Part shown: positions 32,216 through 37,797 of the stretch, piece by piece | How the letters are laid out: every line of letters starts with the position of its first letter | Numbering within the stretch: the first letter of the stretch is position 1 | Assembly: GCA_015711855.1 (NCBI GenBank) | Contig: JACVJF010000015.1 | Location: 1 to 40,024, forward strand | Direction of reading: 5' to 3' | DNA length: 40,024 nt | Origin: Candidatus Solincola quzhuomuensis | Lineage (GTDB): Bacteria > Actinomycetota > Geothermincolia > Geothermincolales > RBG-13-55-18 | The notes under the pieces: generated by a model | The model's input: only the letters and a program-made list of their open reading frames with translations | Told to the model about the DNA's origin: nothing | Database searches by the model: none | Translations under genes and position numbers: made by a program

Positions 32216-32890
32216 GTGGTCAGGCACAGGGCCTTCTTCTACAGGTTTGACCGTTCTTTAGGCGTCGGTGTACTGGCCCATCACCACTATGAAGGTTGGC
32301 AGAGGGCCAATCTATACGCCTTCGGCGTGGACATGGACGCTTTCCTGAAGAAACTGGAGGAGCGCGAGGAAGCCCTCATCCAGTCCGGAATCATGGCCTG
32401 CAGGACGGCGCAGTCAAGGGTCGTCGTCGCCGGCGGGGTGGTCTTTAAGGGCATAACTTGCCAGGCTGCGCAGGACGTCGACGCCCAGAAGATGCTTTCC
32501 GCCATGGAAGACGGCGTCGAGGGGTTCAAGGTGGCGGACGCGGGATCCTTTCAGGTGGCAAAGACCATCTCTCCCCTGGAAGTGCAGGGATTTTCCTATG
32601 GGAAAAAGGTCATCGGGATATCCAAGGTGGTCTTCTTCGAATACGCCACCCAGATCTCCCTTGCGGGGATATACCGTGATCAGGACCGCAACCTCATGGA
32701 CGAGTTGCATGCCGGCCTTGCGAGCCTCAACGCCTACATGACCATACCCTCTCCCCTGCTTACCCTGGAGAGGGATCCCCGGGTGGAATTGAACCTCTTC
32801 CTCCTGCGCGTACCCCTCAAGGAGGAGCTCCAATCGGATTTCGTGCGAGCCGTAAGCGAACTTCCCGAGCTGGAGTTCTACGTCCTCTGA
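32216..32890 (+). CDS. Conserved-looking hypothetical protein
   Basis: This 224-aa soluble protein has a well-formed composition (regular alternation of strands and helices, no low complexity) but no domain I recognise. It has a 'DRSLGVGVLAHHHYEGW' start, a central 'VVVAGGVVFKGITC' strand-turn, and a C-terminal 'ELNLFLLRVPLKEEL' strand. The start is GTG 32216 with GGGAGG 9 nt upstream, and it is divergent from plsC across 138 nt. No function is proposed. Confidence 0.6.
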   Translation: MVRHRAFFYRFDRSLGVGVLAHHHYEGWQRANLYAFGVDMDAFLKKLEEREEALIQSGIMACRTAQSRVVVAGGVVFKGITCQAAQDVDAQKMLSAMEDGVEGFKVADAGSFQVAKTISPLEVQGFSYGKKVIGISKVVFFEYATQISLAGIYRDQDRNLMDELHAGLASLNAYMTIPSPLLTLERDPRVELNLFLLRVPLKEELQSDFVRAVSELPELEFYVL

Positions 32891-32973: not shown

Positions 32974-33987
32974 TTATGCCTGTCTCCCGATGGCCGCGGC
33001 CACCTTCCTGATTTTGCCCATGAGGCTGGAAAAGGTCTCGAAGTCCAGGGACTGGGGGCCGTCGCACAAAGCCGAGTTGGGGTTGGGATGTATCTCTATG
33101 AGGAGGCCGTCCGCCCCTGCGGCCACCGCGGCTAAGGACATGGCCGGTACCAGCGAGGCTATGCCCACCGAGTGGCTGGGGTCGACCACCACCGGCAGGT
33201 GGGAGAGCTTCTTCAGGGCAGCCACGGCGGAAAGGTCCAGCGTGTTCCTAGTATAGGTCTCAAAAGTGCTTATACCCCGCTCGCAGAGGATTATGTTGCG
33301 GTTTCCCTCTTTTATGATGTATTCGGCGGCCAGGAGGAGGTCCTCGATCCTGGAGCTGGGGCCCCTTTTCAGCAGGACCGGATGACCACTGCGCCCGATC
33401 TCGGTGAGGAGAACGAAGTTCTGCATGTTGCGGGCTCCCACCTGGATGATGTCCGCGTATTGGCAAAAGACGTCTATCATCCGCGGGTCGGTTAGCTCGG
33501 TGACCACAGGCAGTCCGGTCTCCTCGCGGGCCTCCGCGAGATACCGCAACCCTTCCTCCCCCAAGCCCTGGAAGCTGTAGGGGCTGGTCCGGGGCTTGAA
33601 GGCACCCCCGCGCAATACGGAACCCCCGGCCATCTTGACCAACCTGGCGGTGTTCAGGATCTGCTCCCGGCTTTCCACCGCACAGGGGCCGGCCATTACC
33701 ACCACCTTATCCCCCCCGATGCGCACCCCGGCCACCTCGATTACCGTATCCTGAGGATGGGTCTCCCGGGCGGCGAACTTGTAGGGCTTGAGAATAGGGA
33801 TGATCTGCTCCACTCCAGGGTAGCCGGCCATGGTCTCCACGACCTTGGTCTTGTCGTCGCCGATGACCCCGATGACCGTCTTGCGCACGCCGTGGATGGG
33901 ATGGGTCTTGAGCCCGAACTCCTCGATCTTGCGCATGACCGCTTCGATCTGTTCGCGGCTTGCGCCCTCGGACATGACCACGATCAC
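32974..33987 (-). CDS. aroF: 3-deoxy-7-phosphoheptulonate synthase (DAHP synthase, type I-beta)
   Basis: This 337-aa enzyme catalyses the first step of aromatic amino acid synthesis from PEP and erythrose 4-phosphate. An N-terminal ferredoxin-like regulatory domain (about residues 1-75) precedes the barrel, which carries 'MAGPCAVES', 'LRGGAFKPRTSPYSFQG' (substrate lysine and Arg), 'LKRGPSS' and 'VVVDPSHSVG' (metal His). This is the I-beta form found in many thermophiles and Gram-positive bacteria. The start is GTG 33987 with GAGGTG upstream; the frame is open to 34026. It converges on the hypothetical protein before it. Allosteric control by Phe/Tyr or chorismate through the N-terminal domain is expected for the family. 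Confidence 0.93.
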   Translation of the reverse strand: MIVVMSEGASREQIEAVMRKIEEFGLKTHPIHGVRKTVIGVIGDDKTKVVETMAGYPGVEQIIPILKPYKFAARETHPQDTVIEVAGVRIGGDKVVVMAGPCAVESREQILNTARLVKMAGGSVLRGGAFKPRTSPYSFQGLGEEGLRYLAEAREETGLPVVTELTDPRMIDVFCQYADIIQVGARNMQNFVLLTEIGRSGHPVLLKRGPSSRIEDLLLAAEYIIKEGNRNIILCERGISTFETYTRNTLDLSAVAALKKLSHLPVVVDPSHSVGIASLVPAMSLAAVAAGADGLLIEIHPNPNSALCDGPQSLDFETFSSLMGKIRKVAAAIGRQA

Positions 33988-34070
33988 GGCAATCACCTCG
34001 TGGGGATTTAAGAAGAAAGCTACCACCGGGCCGTTACGGTGTCAACGCGTGATTGCGGAAGAGGGAAGAA

Positions 34071-34490
34071 TCAGTCCTTTTCCTTCTCCAGGAGGTCGAT
34101 CATGGTGCGGATGAGATCGGTCTCGGTGATGATGCCCACCAGGCGGTCGTCCTCCACGACCGGGAGCCCTCCCACTTTGTGCTGGAGGATAAGTCTGGCG
34201 GCCTCCTCGATGGGGGTGTCGGGGGTCACGGTCACGGGGTTGGCGGTCATTATCCCCCGCACCTGAATGCGGTCCAGTATGTATTCGACGTAACGGCGTT
34301 CCTGGACCACGGCCGAACTCATGTCCGCCTGCCGCACGTCGCGGTCGGTGATGATGCCCACCAGTTTGCCGTTCTCGATCACCGGGAAACGCCTAAAGCC
34401 GTGTTTTTTAATCAGCTCACGGGCCTTCCGCAGGGTGTCGTCTGGCGAGAGTACCACGGGATCGCGGCTCATACGCTCTCTGACCAGCAT
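34071..34490 (-). CDS. CBS-domain pair protein (AcuB-like)
   Basis: This 139-aa protein is two CBS motifs in tandem ('MSRDPVVLSPDDTLRKAREL', 'RRFPVIENGKLVGIITDRDV' and 'VRGIMTANPVTVTPDTPIEE', 'GGLPVVEDDRLVGIITETDL'). Such pairs bind adenosine nucleotides. It has no other domain. AcuB of Bacillus is a CBS plus ACT protein next to AcuA, and an AcuA-like acetyltransferase lies at 35615-36355, so an AcuB-like energy-sensor role is possible but the ACT domain is absent. AGGAGGTCCC precedes ATG 34490. On its strand it lies between DAHP synthase (downstream) and the 281-aa unknown gene (upstream). Confidence 0.85.
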   Translation of the reverse strand: MLVRERMSRDPVVLSPDDTLRKARELIKKHGFRRFPVIENGKLVGIITDRDVRQADMSSAVVQERRYVEYILDRIQVRGIMTANPVTVTPDTPIEEAARLILQHKVGGLPVVEDDRLVGIITETDLIRTMIDLLEKEKD

Positions 34491-34537
34491 GACGGGACCT
34501 CCTCGTAAAGGCGCAAACTCCCCGACGTCTATCGGAT

Positions 34538-34543
34538 ATTATA
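34538..34543 (-). promoter_or_regulatory. -10 box for the CBS-pair gene
   Basis: TATAAT is read on the minus strand at 34538-34543, about 48 nt before the start at 34490. The -35 match is poor. This box is between the two minus-strand genes, so the CBS gene probably has its own transcript. Confidence 0.45.
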
Positions 34544-34554
34544 ATCCAGCCATT

Positions 34555-35400
34555 TCAATATACCCACCCGGGGAAGGTGCAAATGTTCGCAGGGCGGTCC
34601 ACGTTGCGGTACATCTCGACGTCCTTCCAAGCTTCTCCCAGGATGCCGTCGTGGATGGCCCAGCTCCTGCCGCGCACCGTCTTCTCCGCCCCCGGCATGC
34701 GGAAAGGGGTGCTTCCGTCCAGCCTGCGGTAAAGCTCGCCGCCGGGCTGGAACTCACGGTGGATCTCCTCCATCTTCTTTCTCCCGCGAATGTAGTTGAA
34801 GCCGTAGTGCTCGAATATGATGGCGTCGTGATAGGCCAGGGGCTCCGCGACCAGCATGTCGTGTCCCATGGCGGACACGAAACCGAGGGCCAAGGGAAGG
34901 AAATCCTTCAACATGCGCAAACCACGTCGTACCTGTCCCGGCGCCAGTCCCGCTTGCATGGCCTTTATCTCCTCGGATATGTTGCGGCGGGCGGTGCCGA
35001 ATTTGGTGCGTCGCCCGGCATCGTCGATATCCGTGTTGAAGCGGGGCGACCTTGGGTCGTTGATGATGAGGAAGGTTATCTCCACTTTGAAGAAGGCGGT
35101 ATCCGCCACCTCCAGGAAGAAGATGCAGTCCCGGTCTTCGGGGTTCTCTCGGACCTCGATTATGGCGAATCCCGCCTGCCGGGGGGCGATGAACTTGACC
35201 ACACGCTCGCCCTGCGGGTTGCGGAAATCAAGCCGGTCTATGGAGAACATCTCGAAGATGCGGTCCGGTATGAGAAGCGAGTAGACCCTTTCCTTCACTT
35301 CGGGATCCAGCTGGTTGAGGGCGTGGATGCTGTGGTGCGGCGCGCTCCCCACTAGGGCAAGCAGCTCCTCGTCGATCTGGCGAACCCTTTCCAGCGGCAT
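34555..35400 (-). CDS. Conserved-looking hypothetical protein next to AcuA/CBS genes
   Basis: This 281-aa protein is not recognised. It has regular alpha-beta composition with 'LLIPDRIFEMFSIDRLDF' and 'ERVVKFIAPRQAGFAIIEVR' early, a helical segment near 140-170, and a 'GHDMLVAEPLAYHDAIIFEH' and 'FPGWVY' ending. No signal peptide or membrane helix is visible. GAGGTG lies upstream of ATG 35400, and a TATAAT box lies at 35446-35451 on this strand. It is divergent from the AcuA-like gene, so it may belong to the same functional unit. Confidence 0.6.
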   Translation of the reverse strand: MPLERVRQIDEELLALVGSAPHHSIHALNQLDPEVKERVYSLLIPDRIFEMFSIDRLDFRNPQGERVVKFIAPRQAGFAIIEVRENPEDRDCIFFLEVADTAFFKVEITFLIINDPRSPRFNTDIDDAGRRTKFGTARRNISEEIKAMQAGLAPGQVRRGLRMLKDFLPLALGFVSAMGHDMLVAEPLAYHDAIIFEHYGFNYIRGRKKMEEIHREFQPGGELYRRLDGSTPFRMPGAEKTVRGRSWAIHDGILGEAWKDVEMYRNVDRPANICTFPGWVY

Positions 35401-35445
35401 ACGATCGTATCACCTCGTCGATGACGATGCCGTTCCGGCGGGTAT

Positions 35446-35451
35446 ATTATA
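35446..35451 (-). promoter_or_regulatory. -10 box for the 281-aa hypothetical gene
   Basis: TATAAT is read on the minus strand at 35446-35451, about 46 nt before ATG 35400, with no strong -35. The divergent gap of 214 nt (35401-35614) also holds a plus-strand AT-rich stretch near 35485-35500 that may serve the acetyltransferase. A 6-codon frame after GAAGGTG near 35565 is not called. Confidence 0.45.
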
Positions 35452-35614
35452 GATTAACCCGGGAAGGACCGCTGACTTGGTAAGAAATTTAATACTCGGG
35501 GAGTGGCTAATCCCAAGGTATTACGTTCTGTGAACTGCATGTCTGCGGGACGGGAGAAGGTGTGATGGCCAAAGCAATGCCCTAGGCCGAAGATCGAAGA
35601 TACGACCCCGGAGT

Positions 35615-36355
35615 ATGGTGGGATTGGGTTTGGAAGAGCGAGAGAGGTTCTACGTGGACACCCCGCGTGGCCGGGTGTGGATAAGGTCCAGGGCGGAACC
35701 AGAATTCATAGCCTCCCTGAGACTGGATGATGGGATGGGTATTTTCGCCGCCCCGCACTATCCGCCTTCCCGGGAGAAGAAGGCGCTGGAAAGGATAGCC
35801 GCCAAGGAGGAGGGGAACGTGATCCTCGCCTATACCGACGACGGTGTGATAGTGGGGTTCGTGGCCATCGCCCCGCCCAGCGCCGCCGAGCGCTGGGGCA
35901 AGCTGTCCGGGCAGGGACTGGTGGAGGCCATGGCCATAGAGGTCAGTCGGAACTGGCGTTCCATGGGTATTGCCGAAAAGATGATGGAGTGCGGGCTCAA
36001 GGACCCCTACTTTCAGGACAAGATCGTTATCTGCACCGGATATACATGGCATTGGGACCTGGAGTCCACGGGCCTGAGCAAAGAAGAGTACCGGGAAATG
36101 CTCCTCCGATACCTGGAGAAGGCGGGTTTTTTGTACTATGAAACGGACGAGCCAAACATAAACCTGGACCGCGCGAATTTCTTCACGGCGCGGATAGGGC
36201 CGATGGTCAGCGAGGAGCTTTACCACCGTTTCGAACAACTGCTCTTTCAGGAGCCCGGTTGGGCGGAATTCCGGGGGCGCCCTCGGACCATAAAGGAGGT
36301 GCTGGAAAGGGGGAGACTGGGAACGGGGGAGAGGGAAGCCGAGCAGTTGCCCTGA
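35615..36355 (+). CDS. acuA: AcuA-like GNAT acetyltransferase
   Basis: This 246-aa protein matches Bacillus AcuA in order: 'DTPRGRVWIRS' at the start, the acetyl-CoA motif region 'AMAIEVSRNWRSMGIAEKMM', then 'TGYTWHWDLESTGLSKEEYR' and 'NFFTARIGPMVSEE'. AcuA acetylates a lysine of AMP-forming acetyl-CoA synthetase and turns it off. Here the only acyl-CoA synthetase in the window is the ADP-forming type at 38239-39729, which is not the known AcuA substrate, so the target is open. The protein is about 35 residues longer than Bacillus AcuA at the C-terminus. ATG 35615 has only a weak ribosome site. A CBS-pair protein with AcuB-like character lies 1.1 kb away on the opposite strand. Confidence 0.83.
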   Translation: MVGLGLEERERFYVDTPRGRVWIRSRAEPEFIASLRLDDGMGIFAAPHYPPSREKKALERIAAKEEGNVILAYTDDGVIVGFVAIAPPSAAERWGKLSGQGLVEAMAIEVSRNWRSMGIAEKMMECGLKDPYFQDKIVICTGYTWHWDLESTGLSKEEYREMLLRYLEKAGFLYYETDEPNINLDRANFFTARIGPMVSEELYHRFEQLLFQEPGWAEFRGRPRTIKEVLERGRLGTGEREAEQLP

Positions 36356-36428: not shown

Positions 36429-37298
36429 ATGCGTTATCGTGGAGTGATAATCAGGCCTCCGAGCGAGGCCGAAAGCTACATCCTGCAGGTAACCTACGGA
36501 TGTTCGCACAACGCGTGCACTTTTTGCCCCACCTATAAGGGAACGCACTTTCAACCGCGCCCTCTCCGGGAGATAGAGGAGGACATCCGCATGGCGGCCA
36601 GGATGATGCCGCGAACGCGCCGCGTTTTCCTGGCCGACGGGAATGCCCTCTGCCTCCCTGCCGAAAGCCTCATGTATATACTGGGGCTCCTCAAAGAATC
36701 CTTTCCTTATCTGGAAAGGATTGGCATCTACGCCAACGGGAGGGACATCAACGATAAGTCGGAAAAAGAGCTGCGCAGTCTGGCTGAACTGGGAATGGGC
36801 ATCGTCTACCTGGGGCTGGAGAGCGGCGACGACGATGTCCTCCGAAGGGTCCGAAAGCTCGACAGCAGCGAGGAGATGGTGCGGGCCGTCCTCAAGGCGA
36901 AGCGATGCGGTATTCTGACCTCGGTCATCGTTCTACTCGGGCTGGGCGGAAGGGAAGGTTCCCTGCGTCACGCGGAACTGAGCGCTCGGGCGGTCTCCAT
37001 GATGAACCCGCATTATCTGAGCGCGCTCACCCTTATGCTGGTCCCGGGAACGCCCCTCTACCGGCAGTGGGAGAGGGGGGAATTCCACCTGCCCGATACG
37101 GAGGGCATGCTCCGGGAGCTGCGACACTTCATAGCTTGCTGCCAGCTGGAGAACTGCGTCTTCCGCACCAACCACGCTTCCAATTACCTGCCGTTGAGAG
37201 GTGTGCTCTCCAGGGACCGTGATCGGCTCCTGGAAATAATTGACGAGGCTTCCCACCGGCCGGAAATGCTGCGACCGGAGTACATGAGGGGGCTTTAG
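36429..37298 (+). CDS. Radical SAM protein with CX4CX2C cluster motif
   Basis: This 289-aa radical SAM enzyme has the cluster cysteines as 'YGCSHNACTFC' (Cys25, Cys30, Cys33), a CX4CX2C spacing one residue wider than the classic CX3CX2C. It has barrel elements 'VFLADGNALCLP', 'YLGLESGDDDVLRRV' and 'LMLVPGTPLYRQWERG', as in Elp3/MiaB-like subfamilies and B12-independent radical SAM proteins. No B12 or TRAM domain is seen. The substrate is unknown. The start ATG 36429 has GAAGGAAAGAG upstream. A TATACT box lies at 36373-36378. The response regulator lies about 125 nt downstream. Confidence 0.88.
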   Translation: MRYRGVIIRPPSEAESYILQVTYGCSHNACTFCPTYKGTHFQPRPLREIEEDIRMAARMMPRTRRVFLADGNALCLPAESLMYILGLLKESFPYLERIGIYANGRDINDKSEKELRSLAELGMGIVYLGLESGDDDVLRRVRKLDSSEEMVRAVLKAKRCGILTSVIVLLGLGGREGSLRHAELSARAVSMMNPHYLSALTLMLVPGTPLYRQWERGEFHLPDTEGMLRELRHFIACCQLENCVFRTNHASNYLPLRGVLSRDRDRLLEIIDEASHRPEMLRPEYMRGL

Positions 37299-37422
37299 GG
37301 TTTTGAACGTCGGACGTACGCTTTCAGCCGCTGTAATTATTTTCCTTCCGGGCTCAAGGCCTTGTGGTACAACGGTCGATAAATAATTTGAGGCCGTGGG
37401 AGGCAAAAGAGGTGCGTACGAG

Positions 37423-37797
37423 ATGAAGACGGTGGCCTATATCGAGGATGACCCGGACATGATCGACCTGGTCTCCTTGATACTGAACAAGCACGGCTAC
37501 CGCGTGGCCGGGTTCACCGAGAGCCGGGGGATCGTCTCCAAGCTCGAGGAACTGAAGCCCGAACTCATCCTCCTCGACCTCATGATGCCCCACGTTGACG
37601 GGATCGAGGTCTACAAGGAAATAAAGAGCCGGGAAGGGATATCCGGGATTCCGGTGATCATCATCTCGGCCATGAAAAGGGCGGTCGAGGAGATAGAGAG
37701 GGAAGGAGAAGTCAAGGTAGAGGCCTGCTTGATCAAACCCTTCACCATAAGCGAGTTGCTGGACACCGTGACCCGCGTCGTGGGCCGGGGAGATTGA
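37423..37797 (+). CDS. Single-domain response regulator (CheY-like)
   Basis: This 124-aa receiver domain shows the acidic pair 'IEDD' (residues 8-10), the phosphoacceptor 'LLDLMMP' (Asp52), the switch residue in 'IIISAMK' (Ser81) and 'LIKPF' (Lys104). It has no output domain and no histidine kinase nearby, so its partner must lie elsewhere. The start ATG 37423 has AAGAGGTG upstream; the frame is open to GTG 37396. It could act as a phosphate relay or as a partner for a flagellar or kinase protein. Confidence 0.9.
   Translation: MKTVAYIEDDPDMIDLVSLILNKHGYRVAGFTESRGIVSKLEELKPELILLDLMMPHVDGIEVYKEIKSREGISGIPVIIISAMKRAVEEIEREGEVKVEACLIKPFTISELLDTVTRVVGRGD

Follow-up and report, generated by a model that had tools for sequence, protein, structure and literature searches.

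What does a gene of no recognised family do between a gene for an AcuA-like acetyltransferase and a gene for a protein with a pair of CBS domains? The question is raised by a stretch of 40,024 nucleotides (nt) from Candidatus Solincola quzhuomuensis, hereafter the window, in which the middle gene of this trio encodes a protein of 281 amino acids (aa) that we call U281. The window is an entire contig (C14) of a 2.69-Mb genome of 187 contigs, which is 96% complete. Passages of two reports describe how, in Bacillus, AcuA inactivates the synthetase AcsA at K549, AcuC reactivates AcsA, and AMP-bound AcuB inhibits AcuC (PMC13121692, PMC11910552). Our answer, towards which we lean with middling confidence, is that U281 is a component, undescribed before, of an Acu-type system of reversible protein acylation.

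Conservation of the three-gene locus

An earlier reading of the window, made from its sequence only, had placed a CBS-pair gene and a 281-aa gene divergent to acuA. This layout was confirmed, with the three open reading frames (ORFs), for the CBS-pair protein, U281 and an AcuA-like GNAT, at the expected coordinates (Table 1); two PF00571 matches and AcuA homology identify the outer two. The CBS and U281 genes share a strand with a gap of 64 nt, and the AcuA gene is divergent from the U281 gene across 214 nt. Neighbourhood conservation, which that reading had named as a check, was found as well. U281 occurs in 17 of the 59 genomes searched as relatives, all 17 in the window's order and mostly with two copies; its closest named relatives are from Candidatus Solincola tengchongensis, alongside other metagenome-assembled genomes of Actinomycetota. 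Thirteen genomes of the order hold a locus with the window's context (type A). AcuA is the divergent neighbour of U281 in all 12 testable type-A loci, and in the thirteenth genome (G010), in which U281 is divided between two contigs, AcuA comes after the fragment on the other contig. Moreover, the CBS gene lies downstream of U281 in 12/13 type-A loci. The arrangement of the trio is conserved and is therefore more than chance. AcuA is present in every genome with a type-A locus (13/13) and was found in none of the four genomes with other U281 copies only, three of which are less than 85% complete.

The AcuA of the window has full-length homology to the solved AcuA proteins 2q04 (E 1.4e-31) and 9g7f (B. 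subtilis AcuA, E 5.9e-29), its sole solved sequence relatives at E 0.001. Its E109 aligns with the catalytic Glu of B. subtilis AcuA, E102, of which an E102Q variant is described in a passage of PMC11910552, and is invariant in 12/12 AcuA rows, fusions included. A canonical GNAT P-loop, given as Q/RxxGxG/A in passages of PMC8556138 and PMC11254643, is read at R115-SMG-IA120 and stands at the same place in all 12 rows. By sequence, the protein is thus a genuine and apparently competent AcuA, and acetylation of AcsA by it is predicted.

The CBS-pair protein has as its best solved match 5awe, a 'putative acetoin utilization protein' (E 5.2e-35), and also matches AcuB (9s4w, E 6.6e-19). Unlike AcuB, a CBS-CBS-ACT adaptor, it has no ACT domain by Pfam and its chain stops after the second CBS domain; relatives of 212–219 aa elsewhere do score ACT. 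The ACT domain is the part of AcuB reported, in a passage of PMC13039410, to interact with AcuC. Because this domain is lacking we rejected the protein as AcuB proper, and regard it as a probable adenylate sensor that resembles AcuB minus its effector domain.

Could the trio be an ordinary neighbourhood kept by descent within one order, its genes functionally uncoupled? Around it, genes for DAHP synthase, a radical SAM protein, a response regulator and an acyltransferase are conserved too. However, such an account sits badly with the fusion of AcuA and U281 in Methylomirabilota described below, and with the divergent AcuA-CBS pair, which is kept in all six same-class loci without U281 that were examined. 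In these, AcuA stands beside a divergent CBS gene of 136–153 aa and the other neighbours differ; the CBS-only nature of the product was shown by Pfam for one (L170). We regard uncoupled descent as very improbable. The simplest reading is that an old AcuA-CBS pair was later joined by U281 in the window's order. The U281-free pairs of the wider class (L167–L172) have small lipoprotein-like genes alongside.

Two further AcuA sequences were observed. Genome G015, of the same order and with no U281 found, holds an AcuA-like stretch with five in-frame stops (C165:253-942), perhaps a decayed gene. In genome G057 (C239:5097-6848), HDAC-family and AcuA domains lie on the same strand within about 250 nt, perhaps as an HDAC-AcuA fusion; both domains were reported with an 806-aa open frame, and there is one TGA inside the AcuA match.

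U281 and its neighbours in other phyla

U281 had 349 relatives in a scan of genome contigs, and we retained the best 80. Of their loci, 59 lie outside Actinomycetota. In 43 of these, U281 touches or overlaps the end of an HDAC-family gene; in seven, the gene for an AMP-forming (ANL) acyl-CoA synthetase stands upstream of it (six at 10 nt or less, one at 429 nt); and in four, it is fused behind AcuA. Pfam analysis of representative neighbours gave PF00850 (E 2.8e-84) and PF00501. In a tree of 81 U281 sequences these contexts cluster, with 7 label changes (minimum 5, shuffled mean 36.1). After U281, 33 of the 43 HDAC-linked loci carry a gene for a TPR protein (e.g. L123:5710-6678), which may be a third operon member.

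To sample one group evenly, we drew 98 genomes from the class to which G066 belongs, which we take, following the named locus around which they were drawn, to be Desulfuromonadia, kin of Geobacteraceae. U281 was found in 57 and an HDAC-family gene in 72. All 57 U281-bearing genomes have the HDAC-family gene, against 15 of the 41 without U281 (Fisher p 1.7e-13, a value that ignores relatedness), and in 50 of the 57 it is adjacent to U281 on the same strand. A profile search for AcuA found it in 0/98 of these genomes. The AcuA profile gave matches in 27 of the 59 relatives of the window, and in 4 of 50 genomes of non-actinobacterial loci, all four of them Methylomirabilota; this search covered the genomes of 50 of the 59 loci (all except L102, L104, L108, L113, L124, L126, L127, L135 and L137). 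With AcuA undetected there and an HDAC gene paired with it, U281 of Desulfuromonadia would most likely be an acyltransferase opposing the paired deacetylase, or the acyl-CoA-dependent regulator of that enzyme.

In Methylomirabilota, U281 was found in 28 of the 95 genomes searched, and 8 of the 28 encode it as an AcuA::U281 fusion. We inspected the contexts of 30 of 32 matches, with flanks of 1.5 kb. The N-terminal half of the fusion at L088 matches solved AcuA structures with Z scores of 24.6 and 22.5 (for the former, root-mean-square deviation, rmsd, 2.4 over 198 aligned residues), and the whole resembles a two-GNAT protein, as in multi-GNAT types. CBS-type genes stand directly beside the fusion in 4/8. 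Those tested, both of L088 and that of L180, have an ACT domain by Pfam, so that the CBS-ACT form is found here and the CBS-only form in the window. Moreover, a gene of ADP-forming type lies directly downstream of the fusion in 2/8 genomes; its product has a GNAT part, shown by Pfam in one of the two (L136/L176) and judged from length in the other (L177), and is in this like the Pat/PatZ-type proteins that combine GNAT and ADP-forming parts. The ADP-forming protein of the window, in contrast, is only alpha-type and has no GNAT domain.

The predicted nature of U281 and the points against it

At E 0.1, U281 had zero matches to Pfam and NCBIfam, so that no curated GNAT model matched. Matches to EutL (E 0.0068) and to a Mg transporter (E 0.024) were treated as chance. 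An origin on phages was also rejected: 15 pattern matches in viral contigs yielded 0 confirmed relatives, and PHROG gave one match at chance level (E 0.093). We found no published work on the family in the open-access literature, subscription papers being outside that scope.

Its fold is more informative. The AlphaFold2 model is confident (pLDDT 95.1, pTM 0.90), and in a VIA structure comparison all 50 among the matches listed are GNATs, counting Elp3 and FdhC, which we take to be such; the best has Z 7.1 (4ua3, rmsd 3.9, 141 aligned). The general-acid Tyr of GNAT motif B has the spacing YxxxGF. U281 has a motif-B-like [Y/F]E..GF after its presumed strand 5, in which the residue four before the Gly is Tyr in most rows (38 of 52), Phe in a further 12 that include the window, and Leu or Trp in one row each. 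We assign the general-acid role to this position, 196 in the window, from its spacing to GF; several lysine acetyltransferases of the GNAT type are believed to use an active-site Tyr in this way, according to a passage of PMC8556138. In predicted topology, in the VIA matches listed and in this motif U281 is like GNAT lysine acetyltransferases, and the model makes GNAT kinship likely. U281 is a probable second acyltransferase or acyl-CoA-sensing regulator, GNAT-like in form.

Several observations weigh against this picture, some bearing on fold and some on context. The Z values of at most 7.1 are in the range that the tool itself terms possibly a mere common arrangement, and with Foldseek the best match has E 0.061 and the top 50 include ubiquitin-conjugating enzymes and a resolvase. 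No similarity emerged when the profiles of U281 and AcuA were compared (probability score 0.4 over 10 columns, at motif B). The canonical P-loop is found in 0/52 rows in the loop before helix 164–177, the strand 4/helix 3 place; loop 150–162 reads GLxPxQxRxGL or similar. Anywhere within 115–164 the pattern occurs in 1/52 rows (L118, RSMGAG at 146–151, just before that helix). Moreover, the window's own U281 has Phe196 and not Tyr at the presumed general-acid position. In its want of a family match, of a canonical P-loop in place and of a strong fold score, U281 is unlike the GNAT superfamily. The structure model of the fusion, with pTM 0.63, gives no confident arrangement of the AcuA and U281 halves and so does not show an AcuA:U281 interface; its alignment (A4) was flawed, with 73–83 residues of each of 7 single AcuA rows placed on the U281 half.

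These features suit a different account, in which U281 is a degenerate GNAT-like scaffold that does not bind CoA and bridges AcuA or the deacetylase to an acyl-CoA synthetase substrate. A non-canonical P-loop and the absence of profile similarity to AcuA would be expected of it, and contexts that cover writer, eraser and substrate separately would fit a bridge. On the other side, 52 sequences from several phyla share 31 invariant columns, about 12 of them polar or charged, which suggest a ligand or an active site. A scaffold of this kind seems to us improbable.

The points from context concern U281 genes that stand elsewhere. In 11 same-class genomes AcuA is present but U281 is not, no HDAC-family gene is adjacent to the locus in the window's order, and 5 of the 59 non-actinobacterial loci have neither HDAC, synthetase nor AcuA beside U281. 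The partner in Desulfuromonadia was set beside solved chains: at L089 the nearest of these are class I HDACs, namely RPD3 (E 2.2e-71) and HDAC2 (E 3.4e-69), which makes it class-I-HDAC-like by sequence; Bacillus AcuC is placed in class I in a passage of PMC11532494. The second copies of U281 in the window's order (type B) lie mostly in a GMC oxidoreductase operon with no known acetylation gene. One of these is in the window's own genome, on contig C4 (L031:8353-9195, minus strand), and is 69% identical to U281 of the window. It overlaps the end of the GMC oxidoreductase gene, in an operon that includes a conserved gene whose 146-aa product belongs to no known family. Lastly, 19 Methylomirabilota loci with stand-alone U281 have a MobA-like gene beside it in 19/19, ThiI in 16/19 and Sua5 in 13/19. 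Three have an AMP-binding (ANL synthetase) gene in place of ThiI, downstream of U281; other than in these three, profile searches of the 1.5-kb flanks detected no gene related to acetylation. Genes were named by Pfam at L188 and elsewhere by blastp matches to the L188 genes.

These stand-alone loci (L178–L199) form a conserved row of Sua5/YrdC, MobA-like transferase, U281 and ThiI. Near the type-B operon of the window's genome are divergent alpha/beta hydrolase, TetR and pentapeptide genes, and a 372-aa protein without Pfam match (L031:13640-14758, plus strand) that is kept near type-B U281 in 10 loci.

The GMC and the MobA-like/ThiI/Sua5 contexts leave room for a different substrate of U281. 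It may be a GNAT-like enzyme acting on something other than protein, such as a tRNA, nucleotide or cofactor, with a gene that simply accompanies those of acyl-CoA metabolism; metabolism would then account for the acetylation genes beside it. Weak structural matches to the tRNA-acting GNATs Elp3, AtaT and TacT point the same way, though any GNAT would match. Such an enzyme hardly explains the AcuA fusion or the HDAC-family gene present in all U281-bearing Desulfuromonadia genomes, and we think it unlikely, if less so than the scaffold.

A component of an Acu-type system thus remains our preferred reading of U281. A more specific proposal is tentative, possible rather than probable: that U281 is the first of a family of acyltransferases for protein lysines, or of acyl-CoA-gated subunits, GNAT-like in structure and without a canonical P-loop. 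In Desulfuromonadia it would replace AcuA as the steady counterpart of a class-I-HDAC-like deacetylase, in Methylomirabilota it would act with AcuA in cis, and in the window's lineage it would act in trans with AcuA and a CBS-only sensor.

A putative acylation switch in the window's lineage

The sequence-only reading had noted that the only synthetase in the window is ADP-forming. This holds for the window (Table 1) and not for the genome, where the AMP-forming AcsA is encoded (TIGR02188, 823.7 bits against a cut-off of 724.95). The C-terminal PKTRSGKIMRR of AcsA matches the RSG(K)IMR target context given in a passage of PMC11532494. There are 36 AMP-binding matches in the genome, some partial. 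The genome search that had been proposed, for an AMP-forming synthetase and the AcuC deacetylase, found AcsA and, as candidate deacetylase genes, two of the HDAC family (PF00850) on other contigs, one with a whole-domain and one with a part-domain match. By these assignments a writer (AcuA), a candidate eraser (HDAC-family) and ANL targets (AcsA and other AMP-binding enzymes) would all be encoded in one genome. Because the genome encodes an AcsA that carries the target motif of AcuA, and two HDAC-family proteins besides, the ADP-forming protein is not needed as a target, and we rejected it as a necessary one. It is a possible further target of acetylation, as its gene stays near the trio in 9 loci. 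Its TIGR02717 score is 430 bits, under the cut-off of 567. The suggestion of a missing regulator in a variant lysine-acetylation system is reasonable, since the trio is conserved, AcuA is genuine and U281 is tied to AcuA fusions, HDAC-family genes and synthetase genes; the part of the argument that ran through an ADP-forming target did not survive.

The locus would then be a variant of the Acu reversible-acetylation system. It is like Bacillus acuABC/AcsA in its AcuA with P-loop and catalytic Glu, in the CBS-pair neighbour and in the RSGK motif of AcsA and HDAC-family genes of the genome. It is unlike it in that the deacetylase is encoded outside the locus, the CBS protein has no ACT domain and an additional conserved gene stands between CBS and AcuA, so that acuA, acuB and acuC do not form a single operon here. 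In the mechanism that we propose, the acyl tag would be removed by an HDAC-family enzyme encoded elsewhere in the genome, and the CBS-only protein would likely supply an adenylate signal, the part played by AcuB in Bacillus. U281, as a divergent GNAT-like protein, is predicted probably to bind acyl-CoA. In the window's lineage a role beside AcuA, in regulation or in the choice of substrate, is more likely for it than that of a writer, because a Phe occupies its presumed general-acid position and an apparently competent AcuA adjoins it.

Table 1. Features of the trio and of its surroundings in the window.
Feature	Coordinates	Strand	Basis
224-aa protein without Pfam/NCBIfam match	32216-32890	+	neighbourhood kept in 12 loci
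DAHP synthase, directly downstream of the CBS gene, housekeeping neighbour	32974-34026	-	TIGR01361 above cut-off; cluster c5, 12 loci
CBS-pair (Bateman) protein, 139 aa	34071-34490	-	PF00571 E 7.2e-39, two copies; no ACT match
U281, 281 aa, undescribed family	34555-35400	-	no Pfam/NCBIfam match; predicted GNAT-like fold
U281/AcuA divergent intergenic stretch, 214 nt; likely promoters (predicted)	35401-35614	.	coordinates
AcuA-type GNAT lysine acetyltransferase, 246 aa	35615-36355	+	2q04/9g7f homology, P-loop, E109
Radical SAM protein, downstream of AcuA	36429-37298	+	PF04055 E 5.3e-22; cluster c9, kept in 11 loci
Single-domain response regulator	37396-37797	+	PF00072 E 1.8e-22; cluster c16, kept in 9 loci
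ADP-forming acyl-CoA synthetase alpha-type protein, 557 aa	38239-39912	-	PF13607, PF13380; cluster c14, 9 loci

The start codons of neighbouring genes were called by script, and small overlaps are therefore unsure.

Taken together, these data point to U281 as probably an unrecognised part of a switch that controls acyl-CoA synthesis. The novelty would lie in an undescribed component, found in several phyla, of a known system. If this is true, U281, whose links to writer, to eraser and to substrate are separate, would bring a layer of control or a new writer, and in Geobacter-type bacteria a counterpart would be named for the HDAC-like deacetylase. Acetylation control of acyl-CoA metabolism would become testable in this genetically tractable group, and a family without Pfam or NCBIfam match gains a concrete hypothesis.

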